A DNA stretch of 24,055 nucleotides from positions 1 through 24,055 of IMG/VR virus record IMGVR_UViG_3300035633_000378; one strand, 5' to 3'. The stretch is from a virus. The notes under the pieces are model-generated. The model did no database searches and was not told the DNA's origin. It saw only the letters and a list, made by a program, of their open reading frames with translations. The position numbers were made by a program, and so were the translations under genes. Positions 634-8,503 of this stretch are shown one piece after another; positions within the stretch are counted from its first letter, which is position 1; each line of letters begins with the position of its first letter.

Positions 634-1207
634 GTTCGGGATTTACGGGAGGGCGATGCGGATCGAGCCGCACGCCGATCTGCTCGGGGCCGAGCTGAGC
701 GGGGCCGATCTGCGCTGGTCCGCTCTGCGCCAAGCCGATCTGCGCAAAGCCGATCTGCGCGGAGCCGATCTGCGCTGGTGCGATCTGCGCGAGGCCGATC
801 TGCGCTGGGCCGATCTGCGCGGGTGCGATCTGCGCTGGTCCGATCTGATCGGGGCCGATCTGATCGGGGCCGATCTGCGCGAGGCAGATCTGCTCGGGGC
901 CGATCTGCGCTGGGCCGATCTGATCGGGGCCGATCTGCGCGAGGCAGATCTGCTCGGGGCCGATCTGCGCTGGGCCAAGGGTGCCCATCTCCTCAGCATC
1001 ACAATGCACGGCTACGCGGTCACGGCTGTCTGGTGTGGTGCCGAGTGGCGCATTCGCGCCGGGTGCCGAGACCTCACGGTGCCCGAGGCCCGCGCCCACT
1101 GGAACCCGCAGACCTACAAGTACCCGCCTGACGCCGAACGTATCGCGCTGATGCTCGATTGGCTGGAGAAACAGCCGGTGCCGGAGGGGCCCAGCGAAGG
1201 GGGGTGA
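626..1207 (+). CDS. Pentapeptide-repeat protein
   Basis: The start is the ATG at 626, with GGAGG at 615-619 and a 6-base spacer; it overlaps the previous stop. Residues about 15-115 are roughly twenty A(D/E)LxX units (ADLRG, ADLRW, ADLLG, ADLIG), which in this family fold as a right-handed quadrilateral beta helix. About 80 non-repeat residues follow, with a conserved-looking TMHGYAVTAVW and WRIRAGCRDLTVPEARAHW. Such tail domains occur in phage pentapeptide proteins, but the role is not established. Some pentapeptide proteins mimic DNA and bind gyrase; nothing here proves that. The gene ends one base before the methyltransferase start, which points to an accessory operon with genes 1 to 4. 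Confidence 0.85.
   Translation: MSEFGIYGRAMRIEPHADLLGAELSGADLRWSALRQADLRKADLRGADLRWCDLREADLRWADLRGCDLRWSDLIGADLIGADLREADLLGADLRWADLIGADLREADLLGADLRWAKGAHLLSITMHGYAVTAVWCGAEWRIRAGCRDLTVPEARAHWNPQTYKYPPDAERIALMLDWLEKQPVPEGPSEGG
674..976 (+). repeat. 15-bp repeat array coding for pentapeptides
   Basis: The core GCCGATCTG recurs every 15 bases. Within the array, 852-916 is repeated exactly at 912-976 with a 60-base period, so four pentapeptides were duplicated recently with no base change. This is a coding repeat, not a CRISPR: there are no unique spacers. Confidence 0.92.
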
Positions 1208-1208
1208 G

Positions 1209-2105
1209 ATGAATGGCGTTTCTGTATGTGCCGGGATTGGAGGACTCGACCTCGGCGTCGAGCTCGCGCTCGGTCGCCCCTTCGATGCCTGCCTGTACGT
1301 GGAGAGGGAGCTCGGTGCAGCCGCGATCCTGGCCGCGCGTATGGCGGCGGGTGACCTCGCACCGGGGCCTATCTGGGACGATGTCGAGACCGCTGCGCGC
1401 ATTCCAGGCATTCAAGCGATGGGCTGCGACGTCGTCACGGCCGGGATCCCATGCCAGCCGTTCAGCGTCGCAGGGAAGGGCCTCGGACTCGAGGATAAGC
1501 GATGGCTCGGAGAGGCGTTCCTGGATCTCATTCGGGTCGTGGGACCGAGTCTCGTCGTCGTGGAGAACGTCCCAGGCTTCGCTCTTCGGGGAGCCGCCCG
1601 CATCTGTGGGGGACTTTCCGAAATGGGGTTCGATGCGGAATGGGGCCTGTTTTCTGCGGGAGCCACTGTCGGCGCCCCCCATCGCCGCGAGCGGTTCTTC
1701 CTGGTCGCGTGGCGTGTATCCGACGCCGAACGCGGTCGCCATCTGGCCGACGCCTACGGCGGGCGATGCGAAGGCGAGCGGGAGCAGGAACGCCCCAGGA
1801 TCGAAGGCGAATCAGGGGGTCTCGCTTACGGATGCCATCCGGACGGGCGACTCCCATGGCCGCCGGGACCGGACGATCGAGCAGGATGGATCGAATGGCT
1901 CGCCCGAGGATGGCCCGCTCCGGCTCTTGAATCCCCGATTCGTCGAGGCTCTGATGGGCTTGCCCCTCGATTGGACGAGAGATCCGACAGACTAAGGGCG
2001 CTCGGGAACGCAGTCGTCCCAGATCAGGCGGCATATTCGATTCGGGCCCTGCTACACAGAGCAGGAATTGAGGTTGTCCACCATGCCCCGCCCTGGGCCG
2101 CGTGA
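1209..2105 (+). CDS. DNA (cytosine-5-)-methyltransferase
   Basis: This 298-residue protein would transfer a methyl group from S-adenosylmethionine to C5 of cytosine in a specific DNA site, probably to hide phage DNA from host restriction. The expected motifs are in order: I (CAGIGGLDLG, residues 7-16), IV with the catalytic cysteine (GIPCQPFSVAGKG, Cys82), VI (ENVPG, 120-123 region), VIII (GAPHRRERFFLVA, from about 155) and X (RLRALGNAVVP, 261-271). The target-recognition region between VIII and X is short and rich in Gly, Arg and Asp. The start ATG follows AGGGGGG at 1199-1204 by only 4 bases; a second ATG in another frame lies at 1213. Codon third positions are GC-rich in this frame in the first half but less so after about 1690, where the other frame looks better. 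No restriction partner is visible apart from the neighbouring HNH protein. Confidence 0.9.
   Translation: MNGVSVCAGIGGLDLGVELALGRPFDACLYVERELGAAAILAARMAAGDLAPGPIWDDVETAARIPGIQAMGCDVVTAGIPCQPFSVAGKGLGLEDKRWLGEAFLDLIRVVGPSLVVVENVPGFALRGAARICGGLSEMGFDAEWGLFSAGATVGAPHRRERFFLVAWRVSDAERGRHLADAYGGRCEGEREQERPRIEGESGGLAYGCHPDGRLPWPPGPDDRAGWIEWLARGWPAPALESPIRRGSDGLAPRLDERSDRLRALGNAVVPDQAAYSIRALLHRAGIEVVHHAPPWAA
1213..1995 (+). CDS. Overprinted ORF inside the methyltransferase gene, phage ORF family
   Basis: A 260-codon ORF starts 4 bases after the methyltransferase ATG, in the +1 frame, with a better spacer (8 bases) to the same AGGGGGG. Its translation is not random: MAFLYVPGLEDS at the N-terminus, FPKWGSMRNGACF at 135-147, YPTPNAV and WPTPTAGD at 169-185, SLTDAI at 204-209 and LNPRFVEALMGLPLDW at 239-254 resemble motifs I recall in many uncharacterised phage proteins encoded at or after Dcm-type genes. 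In the second half this frame has the more GC-rich third positions. The first half is serine- and arginine-rich, as expected of a shadow frame. It could be a true overlapping gene, or the 3' part could be reached by frameshifting from the methyltransferase. Function unknown; existence as a protein is uncertain. Confidence 0.42.
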   Translation: MAFLYVPGLEDSTSASSSRSVAPSMPACTWRGSSVQPRSWPRVWRRVTSHRGLSGTMSRPLRAFQAFKRWAATSSRPGSHASRSASQGRASDSRISDGSERRSWISFGSWDRVSSSWRTSQASLFGEPPASVGDFPKWGSMRNGACFLREPLSAPPIAASGSSWSRGVYPTPNAVAIWPTPTAGDAKASGSRNAPGSKANQGVSLTDAIRTGDSHGRRDRTIEQDGSNGSPEDGPLRLLNPRFVEALMGLPLDWTRDPTD

Positions 2106-2990: not shown

Positions 2991-4583
2991 ATGGGCAAGC
3001 GGTCGAAGATGCTCTCGCGCGGTGAACGCCTCGCCGACGAGCTCGTCCGGTTTGCGGAGCGGCACAAGGTGCCGGAGGGATCTCTCGCCGGGGAGCCGAT
3101 CCAGATCCTCGACTGGGAACGCGAGTTCTTCCGCGGCGCATTCGGGACGGACGCCGACGGCGGACCGATCCGGACGGCGATCCTCACGGTCGCCAGACGG
3201 AACGGGAAGACGTTCCTAATCGCGATCATCGTCCTCGCTTGCCTCTACGGCCCTCTCCACAAGGCGGGCGCCCGGATCGCCTCGCACGCCCGCTCCAGGA
3301 AACAGGCCCGGATCATCTTCGAATACTGCGTGAAACTGATCGAGATCTCGGGCTTCTCGCACCTCGTCCGGATCAAGCCGTCGGCGGGCGAGATCGTCGG
3401 GTTCCGCTACGAGGGAGAGGCCCCTCCCGAATACGTGGCGATGAGCGCGGAGGCGTCCACGGCGGTCGGTTTCGGCCTCTACCTGGCGATCGGCGACGAG
3501 GTCGGACAGATCAAGGGTCCGAACGATGCCCTCTGCGAGAACATCGCGACCTCGCTCGGCTCCTATGAGGACTCGCTCGAGATCCTAATCTCGACGCAGG
3601 CCCCCTCGGACCAGGACTATTTCTCGATCCAAATCGACGCGGCGCTCGCCGACCCCTCCGCCTACGTCATGATCCACGCCGCCGACGAGGAGGACGACCC
3701 CGGCGACCCGGTCGCGTGGCGGAAGGCGAACCCCTCAATCGGGCATTCCAGGTCCGAGACCGACATCCGCCGCCAATACGAGCGCGCCGAGAGGGCGCCC
3801 TCGCTGATGGCGAAGTTCCGGAATCTCATCCTGAACCAGCGGGTAAGCGCGGACGCGGGCCTCTTCGACGCGGCGACGTGGCGGAGCTGCGCCGAGGAGA
3901 TCGACCTCGAGGTCTTTCGGGCGGGCGTCGTCTTCGGGGGGCTTGATCTCTCGATGCGTTCGGACCTGACCTCGCTCGTCCTCCTCGCCGCCGACGACGA
4001 GGGCGACGTCCACGTTCTCACCTACGCCTGGACGCCTGCCGGGACGCTGCTCGGCCGCGAGCAGATGGATCATGCGCCGTATTCGCTCTGGGCAGACCAG
4101 GGCTACCTGACTCCCGTCCCCGGAAACGTCATGCGGATCGGCGACCTCGCGGAGCGCGTCGTCGCCGAGATCGAGCGGTATGACGTGACGCGCTGCTACT
4201 TCGACCGCTGGCGGATCGAGGAGCTCCTCTCCTACGTGGACGAGTACGCGGGCGGCTACCTGGCCGCGCGCTGGGACGAAGACGAGACCGCCACGTTCGC
4301 GCCATGCGGGCAGGGATTCCGCGACATGGCCCCGGCGATCGACGCTCTCGAGGAGCTCGTCCTCTCCGGTCGGCTCCGACACGGCGGGAACCCGGTCCTC
4401 AACGCCGCCATCGCCAACGCGATCGTCTCCCAGGACGCAGCCGGGAATCGCAAACTGGTGAAGCAAAAGAGCGCGGGCCGCATCGACCCGGCCGTCGCCC
4501 TCGCCATGGCCGCGAAGGCGTTCGTCGATGGCGAGGCTCCCGAGTGCCTGGGCGACTCCGTGGGCGTCGTCTTCTCCGACTGA
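2991..4583 (+). CDS. Terminase large subunit
   Basis: This is the packaging motor and nuclease, which pumps DNA into the procapsid and cuts the concatemer. The 530 residues show a HK97-type Terminase_1 layout: a deviant Walker A ARRNGKT (68-74), Walker B YLAIGDE (164-170) with the catalytic Glu170, and a coupling motif ISTQ (200-203). The RNase H-like nuclease domain follows, with GGLDLS (Asp319), CYFDRW (Asp405) and GRIDPAVA (Asp499) as the three acidic metal ligands. All expected catalytic residues are present, so the enzyme should be active. The start ATG at 2991 has only a weak AGG; coupling to terS, which ends 6 bases earlier, is likely. Confidence 0.95.
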   Translation: MGKRSKMLSRGERLADELVRFAERHKVPEGSLAGEPIQILDWEREFFRGAFGTDADGGPIRTAILTVARRNGKTFLIAIIVLACLYGPLHKAGARIASHARSRKQARIIFEYCVKLIEISGFSHLVRIKPSAGEIVGFRYEGEAPPEYVAMSAEASTAVGFGLYLAIGDEVGQIKGPNDALCENIATSLGSYEDSLEILISTQAPSDQDYFSIQIDAALADPSAYVMIHAADEEDDPGDPVAWRKANPSIGHSRSETDIRRQYERAERAPSLMAKFRNLILNQRVSADAGLFDAATWRSCAEEIDLEVFRAGVVFGGLDLSMRSDLTSLVLLAADDEGDVHVLTYAWTPAGTLLGREQMDHAPYSLWADQGYLTPVPGNVMRIGDLAERVVAEIERYDVTRCYFDRWRIEELLSYVDEYAGGYLAARWDEDETATFAPCGQGFRDMAPAIDALEELVLSGRLRHGGNPVLNAAIANAIVSQDAAGNRKLVKQKSAGRIDPAVALAMAAKAFVDGEAPECLGDSVGVVFSD

Positions 4584-4696: not shown

Positions 4697-5323
4697 ATGG
4701 AACTTCCGGGCCTGGGGCTACTGGGCGGGATCGAGGCCGCGTCGAACGGCCGCTATCGATTCGTCGCCTCGACGGACACGAAGGACGACGCCCGCCGGAT
4801 CGTGATCCAGGCGGGATGGGAGCTCGCCGAGTTCCGCGCGAACCCGGTCCTCCTCTGGGATCACGGCCATTCCGAGGCCCTCGAGCGCGAGCCGATCGGC
4901 CGCGTCCCCTCCATCGAGGTCGGCTCCTACGCGGGGCGTCCGGCCCTCATCGCTGAGATCGAGCGGAACTCGAACCCGAACCCGGCCGCGGATCGACTCT
5001 GGGGCATGGTAGACGCGGGTGATCTCCGCGCGGTCTCGGTCGGCGCCGTCGCCACGGTCCCGCCCGAGTATCGGTTCGGGGACGACGGAGACCTGGAGGC
5101 CGTCGTCTACGCGGGCGCGCGTCTGATGGAGCTCTCGCTCGTCTCGGTCCCCTCGAACCCCGACGCCCTCCGCATCGCAGCAGGCGCGTTGGGCGCGGGC
5201 TTCGATCCACTCTTCGGTCTCGGGACGCGCCGCAAGGCGACCCCCCCGTCCCGAGACCGCCAACGTCCCACGCGCAACGCGTGGCTCGAGAAGCAACGTA
5301 TGGCGCCGCCGACGCGCCGATAG
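4697..5323 (+). CDS. Prohead protease (HK97 family, peptidase S78)
   Basis: The ATG at 4697 is chosen because it follows GGGGGAGAGGG immediately and starts just before the conserved fold; an upstream ATG in the hairpin region is less likely. The 208-residue protein shows the S78 pattern: the His site LLWDHGH (53-58), the catalytic Ser in AVSVGA (Ser114), and MELSLVSVPSNPDA (144-157) with the Glu that completes the active centre. It would cleave the N-terminal scaffold segment of the capsid protein and itself during head maturation. The tail after residue 170 is basic and Pro-rich, probably a targeting segment. The capsid gene follows 11 bases downstream. Confidence 0.9.
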   Translation: MELPGLGLLGGIEAASNGRYRFVASTDTKDDARRIVIQAGWELAEFRANPVLLWDHGHSEALEREPIGRVPSIEVGSYAGRPALIAEIERNSNPNPAADRLWGMVDAGDLRAVSVGAVATVPPEYRFGDDGDLEAVVYAGARLMELSLVSVPSNPDALRIAAGALGAGFDPLFGLGTRRKATPPSRDRQRPTRNAWLEKQRMAPPTRR

Positions 5324-5334
5324 GAGATCCACCC

Positions 5335-6756
5335 ATGAAGCGAAAGCCGATCGGGGTCGCCATCGACGAGCGCATCGACGCGCGCGCGGCCCTCCTCGAG
5401 GAATACGAGACGCTCCAGGCGAAGGCGCACGACGAGGACCGCGTTTTCGACGAGGACGAGCGCAAGCGCGCCGACGAGATCAAGGCGAGCGTCGAGAAGA
5501 TCAACACGCAGCTCGAGGAGCTCGGCGAGCGCGAGCGCCTCCTGGCGAGCTCGACCGAGACGACCCCGCTTCCGAAGCGCGGCTCGGACTCCGACGAGCG
5601 ATACGTCGAGGCGAAGAGCGCCCGCACCCGCGAGCGCGACGCCTCGGATCGCTGGAAGGGCGTCGGTCTCGCGCTCCAGGCCCATTGCCTGCACGCGGTC
5701 GGCGGAAACAATCACGCCGCCGCGGCCGACTACGCCCGGAAGACCCTCGACGATCACGCGCTCTCGAAGATCTTCGAGTTCCGCGCCGGTCACACTCCCG
5801 AGGAGTTCAATCGCGCCGTCTTCCAGGCGGCGGCGGTCGACCAGGGCACGTCGACGGATGCGGACTACCTGGCCCCGCTCCAGGAGTATCGCCGCGCCGC
5901 CGATCAGTTCATCGGGCTCTGGCGATCGAAGACGATCCTCGGGCGCCTCATGACGACCTCGCTCTCGTTCGGCGTGGATCGCGACGTCGAGATCCCGCGG
6001 ATGACGACCGGCACCTCGACGGCCTGGGTCGGAGAGGGTTCGCCGATCCCCGTATCGGCCATGGCGTTCGACTCGATCGCCCTCGAGCCGCGGGAGATGG
6101 GCACGATCGTCGTCATGACGGAGAAGAGCATCCGCCACGCGAACCCGTCGGCGCTCATGATCGCGCAGAACGATATGGTCGAGAGCGCCGCGCGACACGC
6201 GGACGTCACCGCCCTCGACGCGAACACGTCGAACCCGGCGCGACCGCGGGGCCTCTTCAACGGGGTTACGCCGATCACCGCGACGTCGGGCGGCGGCTAC
6301 GCCGCGGCCGACGGCGACGCGAAGGCGCTGATCGGCGCGATGACCGGGAACGACATCCCGATCGTCGGCGGCGGCTGGGTCATGTCGCCCGAGGCGCTCC
6401 TCGAACTCCAGTTCATGCGCGACGGGAACGGGAACCTCATCTATCCCGAGACCCTGAACGGCAGCTGGCGCGGCTATCCGGTGATCGATTCCTCGCAACA
6501 GACGACCGACACGATCGACTTCATCTGTGCCGGCCACGTCATCATGGCCGACGACTTCGGCCCGGAGATCTCGCTCTCGAACGAGGCTACGATCCACCGG
6601 GACGACGCGCCCGAGGCCGACCTGAACGCGGCGGCGACCCCGGTCCAGAGCCTCTGGCAGACGGCCGCGGTCGGAATCCGCGTGATGCAGGGCCTCGACT
6701 GGGAGCGCCGACGGGACAACGTCGTCGCCCGTATCACGGGCGCGACCTGGGTCTGA
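5335..6756 (+). CDS. Major capsid protein (HK97 fold) with N-terminal delta domain
   Basis: The ATG at 5335 follows GGAG at 5323-5326 by 8 bases. In the 473-residue protein, residues about 20-75 are highly charged and helical (ERKRADEIKASVEKINTQLE type), matching the HK97 delta domain that acts as internal scaffold and is removed by the protease. The mature part starts somewhere after residue 100 and has the usual signatures: the DADYLAPLQ region, TSTAWVGEGSPIP, REMGTIVVMTEKSI, and a C-terminal AAVGIRVMQGLDWERRR strand as in HK97-fold capsids. No decoration protein gene is obvious, though the next gene is a candidate for an accessory head protein. Confidence 0.92.
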   Translation: MKRKPIGVAIDERIDARAALLEEYETLQAKAHDEDRVFDEDERKRADEIKASVEKINTQLEELGERERLLASSTETTPLPKRGSDSDERYVEAKSARTRERDASDRWKGVGLALQAHCLHAVGGNNHAAAADYARKTLDDHALSKIFEFRAGHTPEEFNRAVFQAAAVDQGTSTDADYLAPLQEYRRAADQFIGLWRSKTILGRLMTTSLSFGVDRDVEIPRMTTGTSTAWVGEGSPIPVSAMAFDSIALEPREMGTIVVMTEKSIRHANPSALMIAQNDMVESAARHADVTALDANTSNPARPRGLFNGVTPITATSGGGYAAADGDAKALIGAMTGNDIPIVGGGWVMSPEALLELQFMRDGNGNLIYPETLNGSWRGYPVIDSSQQTTDTIDFICAGHVIMADDFGPEISLSNEATIHRDDAPEADLNAAATPVQSLWQTAAVGIRVMQGLDWERRRDNVVARITGATWV

Positions 6757-7165: not shown

Positions 7166-8503
7166 GTGCCGGACTGGCTCGTTCGCGTGCCCCGTCGGAG
7201 CCGCCCCGCGGCGCCGGAGACCGTCAGTCTCTCGACGGGCGAGACGTCGCTCACGGCGGCGTCCGCCCTCGAGTGGCCGACGCGGACCCGCGCCCGCAAC
7301 TCCTGGCAAATGGGTCTACGGGCCGCGAACCCGACGACCGGCGAGGAGCTCGCCGCGGTCTACGCGTGTCAGGCTCTGATCGCGAACTCCGTCGCGCCCG
7401 TGCGGATCCGCCACGTCCGCTATGAGGACGGCGTCCCCGTCGAGATCCCCGCCTCGCGAAAGGCGGCGGTCCTAGCACGGCCGAATCACTACCAGACCGG
7501 GCTCGAGTTCCGGTCCTACGCGATCCACTGCGCGCTCTCCAACGGGAACGCCTACGCCTGGAAGGAGCGCGACGCGGTCGGTCGGGTCGTGGCGCTGCAC
7601 CCGATCGCCCCCGACGCGGTCGCCCCGGAGCGGATGCGCGAGACGGGGGACATCTACTACCGGGCGCCCCTGAACTTCGACGAGCCGGTCGAGCGCCCGG
7701 AGCGTCTCGCGCAGCGGGACGTCTGGCATTGGCGCCCCCGGACGACGCGGGATCCGCTCTGCGGGATCTCGCCCCTCCAGGCGCTGATCTACGTCCGGAT
7801 CATGCAGGGCGAGATCCAGCAGACGTCCGCCGAGTTCTTCGCGAACAAGGCGCAGAACGGCGGCTATCTCGCGACCGACGCGAACGTCTCCGAGAAGCAG
7901 GCGAAGATCTACCTCGCGTCCTGGGAGCGCGCCGCGCGCGAGCGCCAGGCGGGGCGCGCAGCGTTCCTGGACAAGGGCATCAAGTGGCACGATCAGAGCC
8001 TCTCGGCCACGGACGCGGCCCTCATCGACCAGTACCGCCTCACGGTCGAGGAGATCGCGCGCGCCTACGGGGTGCCGGGGTGGATGATCGGACTGGGCGA
8101 TCCCTCGTATTCCAACGCGGAGACGATGGATCGGACCTATCACGCCCAGACGCTACGCTTCTACTTCGACTCCCTCGAGGCGAGCCTCGGGATGACCTTC
8201 AATCTCTCGGAGGGCGAGGCGTTCGATCACGCCGTCGAGGAGCGCATCGCGAAGAGTGACACGAAAAGCCAGATCGAGGGCCTCGCGCGAGCCGTCCAGG
8301 GTGGGATCATGACCCCGAACGAGGCTCGGAAGCGCCTGGGCCTCCCGAAGGACGTGGACGGCGACACCCTCCTCGTCCAGCAACAGATGATTCCGGTCGG
8401 GACCGCCATCGATCCCCCGGAGCCCATTGCGCCGCGCGCGGCGACCGGGCTCCAGGCGGTCGACGACGACGCCGACGATGATGCCGACCAGGGGGCCGCG
8501 TAG
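7166..8503 (+). CDS. Portal protein (HK97-type)
   Basis: The portal forms the dodecameric ring at the capsid vertex through which DNA passes. The 445-residue protein starts with GTG behind GAGGGGTAGG. It shows the HK97-portal pattern: EELAAVYACQALIANSVA near residue 60, FRSYAIHCALSNGNAYAW near 115, GISPLQAL near 200, TSAEFFANKAQNGGYL near 220, EEIARAYGVPGWMIGLGD near 295 and the C-terminal MTPNEARKRLGLP. The last 20 residues are Asp-rich. Its position downstream of the capsid gene, rather than between terL and protease, is unusual for this family. Confidence 0.92.
   Translation: MPDWLVRVPRRSRPAAPETVSLSTGETSLTAASALEWPTRTRARNSWQMGLRAANPTTGEELAAVYACQALIANSVAPVRIRHVRYEDGVPVEIPASRKAAVLARPNHYQTGLEFRSYAIHCALSNGNAYAWKERDAVGRVVALHPIAPDAVAPERMRETGDIYYRAPLNFDEPVERPERLAQRDVWHWRPRTTRDPLCGISPLQALIYVRIMQGEIQQTSAEFFANKAQNGGYLATDANVSEKQAKIYLASWERAARERQAGRAAFLDKGIKWHDQSLSATDAALIDQYRLTVEEIARAYGVPGWMIGLGDPSYSNAETMDRTYHAQTLRFYFDSLEASLGMTFNLSEGEAFDHAVEERIAKSDTKSQIEGLARAVQGGIMTPNEARKRLGLPKDVDGDTLLVQQQMIPVGTAIDPPEPIAPRAATGLQAVDDDADDDADQGAA

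Follow-up and report, generated by a model that had tools for sequence, protein, structure and literature searches.

In the C5 cytosine methyltransferase M.EcoHK31I, the gene of the large polypeptide also encodes the small one in an alternative frame, and this two-polypeptide methyltransferase was reportedly described by Lee, Kam and Shaw in 1995. According to PMC3404938, the large polypeptide of M.EcoHK31I (YGGCCR) carries motifs I-VIII and X, motif IX lies on the smaller polypeptide, and the target-recognition domain (TRD) is assigned to the large subunit. The small subunit of M.AquI comprises half of the variable region together with motifs IX-X (PMC3404938). The multispecific C5 methyltransferases of Bacillus phages, cited in PMC8936443, hold tandem TRDs in a single methyltransferase frame. 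In phages, orf13 and orf14 of Streptococcus phage MM1 (1998) are annotated as C5 methyltransferase alpha and beta, with beta nested at +1, and gp62/gp63 of Bacteriophage Lily ('g62 internal gene') follow the same nested +1 layout, the Lily beta having a PTP module and a motif IX-like NPNYCELIMGFPIKWTDL. No direct report of overprinted methyltransferases was found in a literature search limited to open-licence papers; the nearest case there, phage methylases with an HNH insertion out of frame (PMC11855218), is of a different kind.

The window, meaning the whole stretch of DNA analysed, is a 24,055-base IMG/VR virus record in which two open reading frames, 1209-2105 and 1213-1995, overlap in +1 relation. 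This locus very probably encodes a C5 cytosine methyltransferase of the M.EcoHK31I kind, made of two polypeptides: a catalytic alpha in frame one and a beta in frame two that holds motif IX and the TRD. The features of the locus and the landmark genes of the window are as follows.

1197..1204, plus strand: Shine-Dalgarno-like AAGGGGGG, common to both frames (from the sequence)
1209..1215, plus strand: staggered double start ATGAATG, with alpha ATG 1209 and beta ATG 1213
1209..2105, plus strand: alpha (frame one), 298 aa, putative catalytic subunit of a C5 cytosine methyltransferase, carrying motifs I-VIII and X
1213..1995, plus strand: beta (frame two), 260 aa, putative subunit overprinted at +1, carrying TRD-like modules and motif IX
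1227..1244, plus strand: motif I CAGIGG (AdoMet site), frame one (translation, alignment A2)
1449..1466, plus strand: motif IV PCQPFS (catalytic Cys), frame one
1554..1571, plus strand: motif VI VVVENV, frame one
1621..1644, plus strand: beta signature KWGSMRNG, frame two (near-invariant in alignment A1)
1680..1697, plus strand: motif VIII HRRERF, frame one
1717..1839, plus strand: TRD-like unit(s) YPTPNAVAI and WPTPTAGDAKASGSRNAPGSKANQGVSLTDAI, frame two (module family in frame two)
1927..1977, plus strand: motif IX equivalent LNPRFVEALMGLPLDWT, frame two (frame one there reads ESPIRRGSDGLAP)
2001..2021, plus strand: motif X LGNAVVP, frame one
2991-4583: TerL
5281-6756: capsid
7166-8503: portal

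Tail genes are also present in the window. AAGGGGGG overlaps the 3' end of the preceding ORF (stop 1205-1207), a pentapeptide-repeat protein gene (572-1207) that ends one base before the methyltransferase start and whose repeats hold several other frames open on both strands.

The initial annotation had described two long, +1-shifted frames opening at ATG 1209 and ATG 1213 behind one Shine-Dalgarno-like site, and both ORFs are found there. The frame-mates it quoted (LADAYGG/WPTPTAG and LNPRFVEALMG/ESPIRRGSDG) are correct, and WPTPTAGD, SLTDAI and LNPRFVEALMGLP are located in frame two as it proposed. Its span of 1209-1995 for the gene needs extension, since frame one runs to 2105 and only frame two stops at 1995. 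Its statement that frame one holds all C5 methyltransferase motifs has to be withdrawn: motif IX is missing there and present only in frame two, and this absence is the key to frame-two function.

GC content at frame-one positions 1, 2 and 3 is 0.74, 0.52 and 0.72 over motifs I-VIII and 0.78, 0.63 and 0.58 over the linker and motif IX, bearing out the earlier remark that third-position composition favours frame one early and frame two late; the position-3 GC of TerL, capsid and portal is 0.89-0.91. Judged from the window by itself, an open frame two is no more than mildly surprising (P = 0.015 against synonymous shuffles), since long spurious frames are common at 66% GC, and the case therefore rests on relatives. 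The major capsid gene (5281-6756) has a +2 frame open across 491 of 492 codons, probably a composition effect given its GC3 of 0.91.

Frame one matches PF00145 over residues 1-172 only (E 1.6e-22) and phrog_363 (E 7e-45); the alpha profile aligns with M.HhaI residues 14-177 only, and the Pfam and PDB profile matches end near residue 170-177. Motifs I, IV, VI, VIII and X stand on one polypeptide, as in C5 cytosine methyltransferases (PF00145), whereas the TRD and motif IX that a monomeric enzyme carries on the same polypeptide are not found on it. The split across two polypeptides is shared with M.AquI, but motif X (LGNAVVP) remains in alpha here and is not on a second polypeptide. The division of motifs I-VIII and X from motif IX, with the small subunit in an overlapping +1 frame, is that of the M.EcoHK31I type, whose motif division is described in PMC3404938. 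The present locus differs from M.EcoHK31I in that beta starts 4 nt past the alpha start and covers most of the gene, that the candidate TRD modules evolve in beta, where they are repeated and exchanged, and that it belongs to a phage orphan enzyme with no apparent restriction partner in the window. In Lily, the two starts lie 184 nt apart, that of beta being the downstream one. The Bacillus phage multispecific enzymes also have several TRD units in tandem, but theirs lie in the methyltransferase frame, whereas the candidate units here lie in the overprinted frame.

Closer to M.AquI is Mycobacterium phage Flux (L370:977-2072), in which gp80 carries motifs I-VIII and gp79, in the +1 frame, carries three PTP units with motifs IX and X; its motif content identifies gp80/gp79 as a putative AquI-like split with partly overlapping frames. 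In MM1, motifs IX and X are both found in alpha (L368:1001-2158), and beta (1152-1577) is without PTP units and motif IX; because alpha is complete in this way, the beta annotated in MM1 may for the most part be the shadow that motifs IV-VIII cast, and is perhaps non-functional.

Frame two matches phrog_1008, 'DNA methyltransferase' (E 2.4e-18), while searches of beta against Pfam, NCBIfam and PDB profiles gave no hit, and a search for related loci with the window beta alone returned none. Modelled alone with AlphaFold, beta gives poor structures (mean pLDDT 54 and 58), with the motif IX helix scoring 93 in the window-beta model. Keeping the signature KWGSMRNG fixes which synonymous codons frame one can use for EMGFDAEWG, and the Gly codon GGG is fixed in the clade. 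Motif IX of frame two has the form LNPxFVEWLMGxPxGWT; E. coli Dcm has the counterpart LTPRECARLMGFE and phage Papez has VSAEFYEWLMGLPRGWVTD, each followed by motif X in the same frame.

In C5 methyltransferases the TRD is located between motifs VIII and IX. Within the C-terminal parts, PTPxAxD-type motifs number 216 in frame two, 7 in frame one and 21 in the third frame. Relatives carry 1 to 5 PTP units per gene, with linker length growing with unit number (r = 0.78), and the window gene has one full unit and one short unit. When a module recurs in different backgrounds, its mean identity is 0.71 in frame two versus 0.35 in frame one, and all 248 of 248 pairs are so directed. Two pairs of alphas (L155/L169 and L173/L199) are 90-95% identical yet have unrelated linkers. 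Because the units recur, repeat and swap between close alphas, we infer that they are exchangeable target-recognition modules, and frame two most likely encodes the target-picking half of the methyltransferase. The TRD would thus be placed in beta, whereas that of M.EcoHK31I has been assigned to the large subunit.

Units of this type also occur in other arrangements. A second, distant C5 methyltransferase family in the E. coli PT62 prophage (L066:1044-2030) has a +1 frame that reads GWPTPVANDSTGS...QLNPAHSRWLMGLPRAWD, with PTP units and a motif IX-like end, which suggests that the dual-frame layout extends to other C5 methyltransferase subfamilies. In Mycobacterium phage Papez (L275:589-1416) and Gordonia phage Neville (L276:589-1452), motifs IX and X are both in frame one, and frame two holds a PTP unit (LLPTPLARDSKGTS and LFPTPRSADAIAG, respectively) and then stops; it is possibly a TRD-only overprinted ORF.

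A real beta with another job, for example as an anti-restriction or regulatory protein outside methyltransferase target recognition, would be compatible with the missing Pfam, NCBIfam and PDB hits and the low-confidence fold, but is quite unlikely: frame one has no motif IX or TRD match and frame two has exactly those in the correct order, beta always co-occurs with alpha, and Flux gp79 joins PTP modules, motif IX and motif X in one frame.

In the proposed two-polypeptide enzyme, alternative initiation at the staggered ATGAATG would yield alpha from ATG 1209 and beta from ATG 1213. Alpha would bind AdoMet and catalyse the reaction through motifs I-VIII and X, and beta would contribute the missing part of the small domain, namely motif IX and a target-recognition region of PTP-type modules, exchanged among relatives and repeated 1 to 5 times. 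Translated from its own start, beta would assemble with alpha into an active enzyme, as in M.EcoHK31I, and its modules would recognise the target. The enzyme probably marks phage DNA against host restriction, a role we infer because it is the usual one for phage orphan methyltransferases.

The start region was compared in 77 distinct start loci fetched without the start pattern. A beta ATG at +4 is present in 71 of them, whatever the alpha start codon, and 69 of these 71 have an NTG start for alpha (ATG 35, GTG 19, TTG 15). A Shine-Dalgarno-like core is found in 63 of the 69 relatives having both starts. The N-termini of the clade read MSWLFS(Q/R)ALVEEYS in frame two and MNELALFAGAGGG in frame one.

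These starts bear on the suggestion of the initial annotation that the C-terminal region is reached by frameshifting. Programmed frameshifting would begin at ATG 1209 and slip by +1 after motif VIII, giving one polypeptide with the TRD and motif IX, and the order of motifs I-VIII in frame one followed by the TRD and motif IX in frame two is indeed the canonical monomer order. To recover motif X from frame one, such a single product would need a second shift, frame-two conservation already begins upstream at its own ATG, and no conserved nucleotide signal or block follows motif VIII, where information drops to 0.2-0.6 bit per codon; frame one is moreover open and selected through the linker, in genes chosen for a long alpha. 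Frameshifting is very unlikely because of the second shift, the separately conserved start and the missing signal. The other option in the initial annotation, real overprinting, is supported by frame-two openness, start-codon conservation, the substitution pattern and module conservation.

Screening with frame-one peptides yielded 49 viral and 4 genomic loci, and the window frame two matches essentially all of these alpha-fetched loci in the +1 frame of their methyltransferase, a frame that runs without interruption over the whole gene in nearly all of them; the frame homologous to the window frame two is open and conserved in more than 100 relatives. At 46-60% GC, relatives keep the +1 frame open throughout and have about 10-21 stops in the +2 frame, and synonymous-codon shuffles rarely reproduce the +1 openness (P mostly <0.01). 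The 21-base start pattern brought 80 further loci, 64 of them independent with both frames complete. Both frames are long in 57 of these 64 genes, only frame one in 1, frame one is broken and frame two intact in 4, and neither is long in 2; the median number of stops in the third frame is 16. Frame-two stops beside an intact methyltransferase frame, which the initial annotation had named as evidence against overprinting, occur in 1 of 58 long alpha frames, an apparent deletion chimera. This gene, L163, has a long alpha and a short beta, and its protein passes from alpha to beta-like sequence after 'MNELALFAGAGGGILGG', so that it looks like a chimera created by deletion. Over the linker and motif IX of 92 genes, stops number 0 in frame one, 0 in frame two and 493 in the third frame, against an expected 249 in frame one under frame-two-only selection and 101 in frame two under frame-one-only selection; the set was picked for long alpha, which biases the frame-one count and not the frame-two count. 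A chance ORF was ruled out by the openness in relatives at 39-68% GC, the shuffles and the stop counts.

Substitutions were counted in disjoint close pairs. Over motifs I-VIII, differences at frame-one positions 1, 2 and 3 number 400, 206 and 900, as for a frame-one gene with added restraint at position 3, and over the linker they number 542, 365 and 425 (Fisher 9e-32 for p1/p3, motifs I-VIII versus the rest), some linkers in these close pairs being non-homologous through swapping. Where the linkers are clearly homologous, in seven pairs (L029/L047, L007/L011, L064/L205, L066/L068, L168/L179, L204/L226 and L055/L190), the counts are 96, 20 and 16. Frame-one position 1 is the wobble position of frame two, and linker substitutions concentrate there; frame two dominates selection in the linker.

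Because the MM1 beta scores on the beta profile even though its alpha is complete, a synonymous-shuffle null was applied and reliance was placed on the linker, motif IX and the start codon; the frame-two similarity over motifs IV-VIII appears to be partly a shadow of alpha conservation. Against synonymous shuffles, the frame-two similarity of the window to its relatives has a median z of 4.2, compared with 1.4 for the control frame. In the MNE clade, excess frame-two similarity is seen in every 20-codon block of motifs I-VIII (codons 1-156), with synonymous conservation raising the control frame too. Both frames are under selection. That frame two merely reflects the codon bias of alpha together with high GC, with no second protein, as the abundance of long spurious frames at the window's 66% GC and its single-window P might suggest, is barely credible given the openness at 46-60% GC beside about 10-21 third-frame stops, the linker substitutions at the frame-two wobble, the module identities and the conserved beta start ATG.

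The double reading recurs in hundreds of phages, and also in prophages. Hosts whose phages or plasmids have the +1 arrangement are Vibrio, Acinetobacter, Klebsiella, Salmonella, Pseudomonas, Leptospira, Bacteroides, Paenibacillus and Mycobacterium, with the beta start deeper inside alpha in Lily, Bacteroides and mycobacteriophages. A beta-motif scan of viral contigs found 333 relatives. Among 369 genomes of one bacterial class, 12 have beta and 13 have a phrog_1008 match. In bacterial genomes (the one class and a phylum-wide draw), beta lies at +1 of alpha in 60 of 62 segments; the remaining 2 are contig ends in which alpha motif X is still seen in the expected frame, and the departures seen elsewhere are truncated loci and local frameshifts. 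A stand-alone beta was not found, beta searches always returning to an overlapping alpha; these searches speak against a separate stand-alone beta family, which entries for 'hypothetical' proteins had led us to expect.

Most records examined annotate only one of the two proteins. In the closely related Vibrio phages 1.091.O (L056) and 1.236.O (L057), one record annotates the alpha frame as methylase and the other the beta frame as a hypothetical protein. In Mycobacterium phage Llama (L065, about 1501-2260), a frameshift near codon 121 shifts the alpha and beta frames, and the annotation is split into gp74/gp75. In E. coli PCP07014 (L067, 4011-4772), the stops of the two frames coincide, and a single short lesion thereby breaks both subunits.

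To our knowledge, same-strand overlaps of about 250 codons with both frames selected are rare in DNA genomes. M.EcoHK31I, the nested 'alpha/beta' of MM1 and the 'internal gene' of Lily were already known; new here are the near-complete overlap with 4-nt staggered starts, the modular candidate TRD in the overprinted frame, the breadth and the lack of a stand-alone beta. Somewhat more tentatively than for the locus itself, we favour the view that dual-frame coding is a main architecture of short phage C5 methyltransferases, that specificity evolves by swapping or multiplying overprinted TRD cassettes with the catalytic frame merely kept open, and that many 'hypothetical protein' entries are hidden subunits. 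The finding may bear on M.BatI, an active prophage C5 methyltransferase that is 20-30% shorter than usual, with a short TRD and an unusual CxGxxG motif I, and whose toxicity in E. coli is independent of the catalytic Cys (PMC8936443); this enzyme may carry a hidden beta frame. If the wider view is true, short phage methyltransferases deemed truncated or short-TRD would each be half of an enzyme, with the specificity subunit left unannotated, and the family would offer a natural test bed for how new specificity evolves in one frame without breaking the other.
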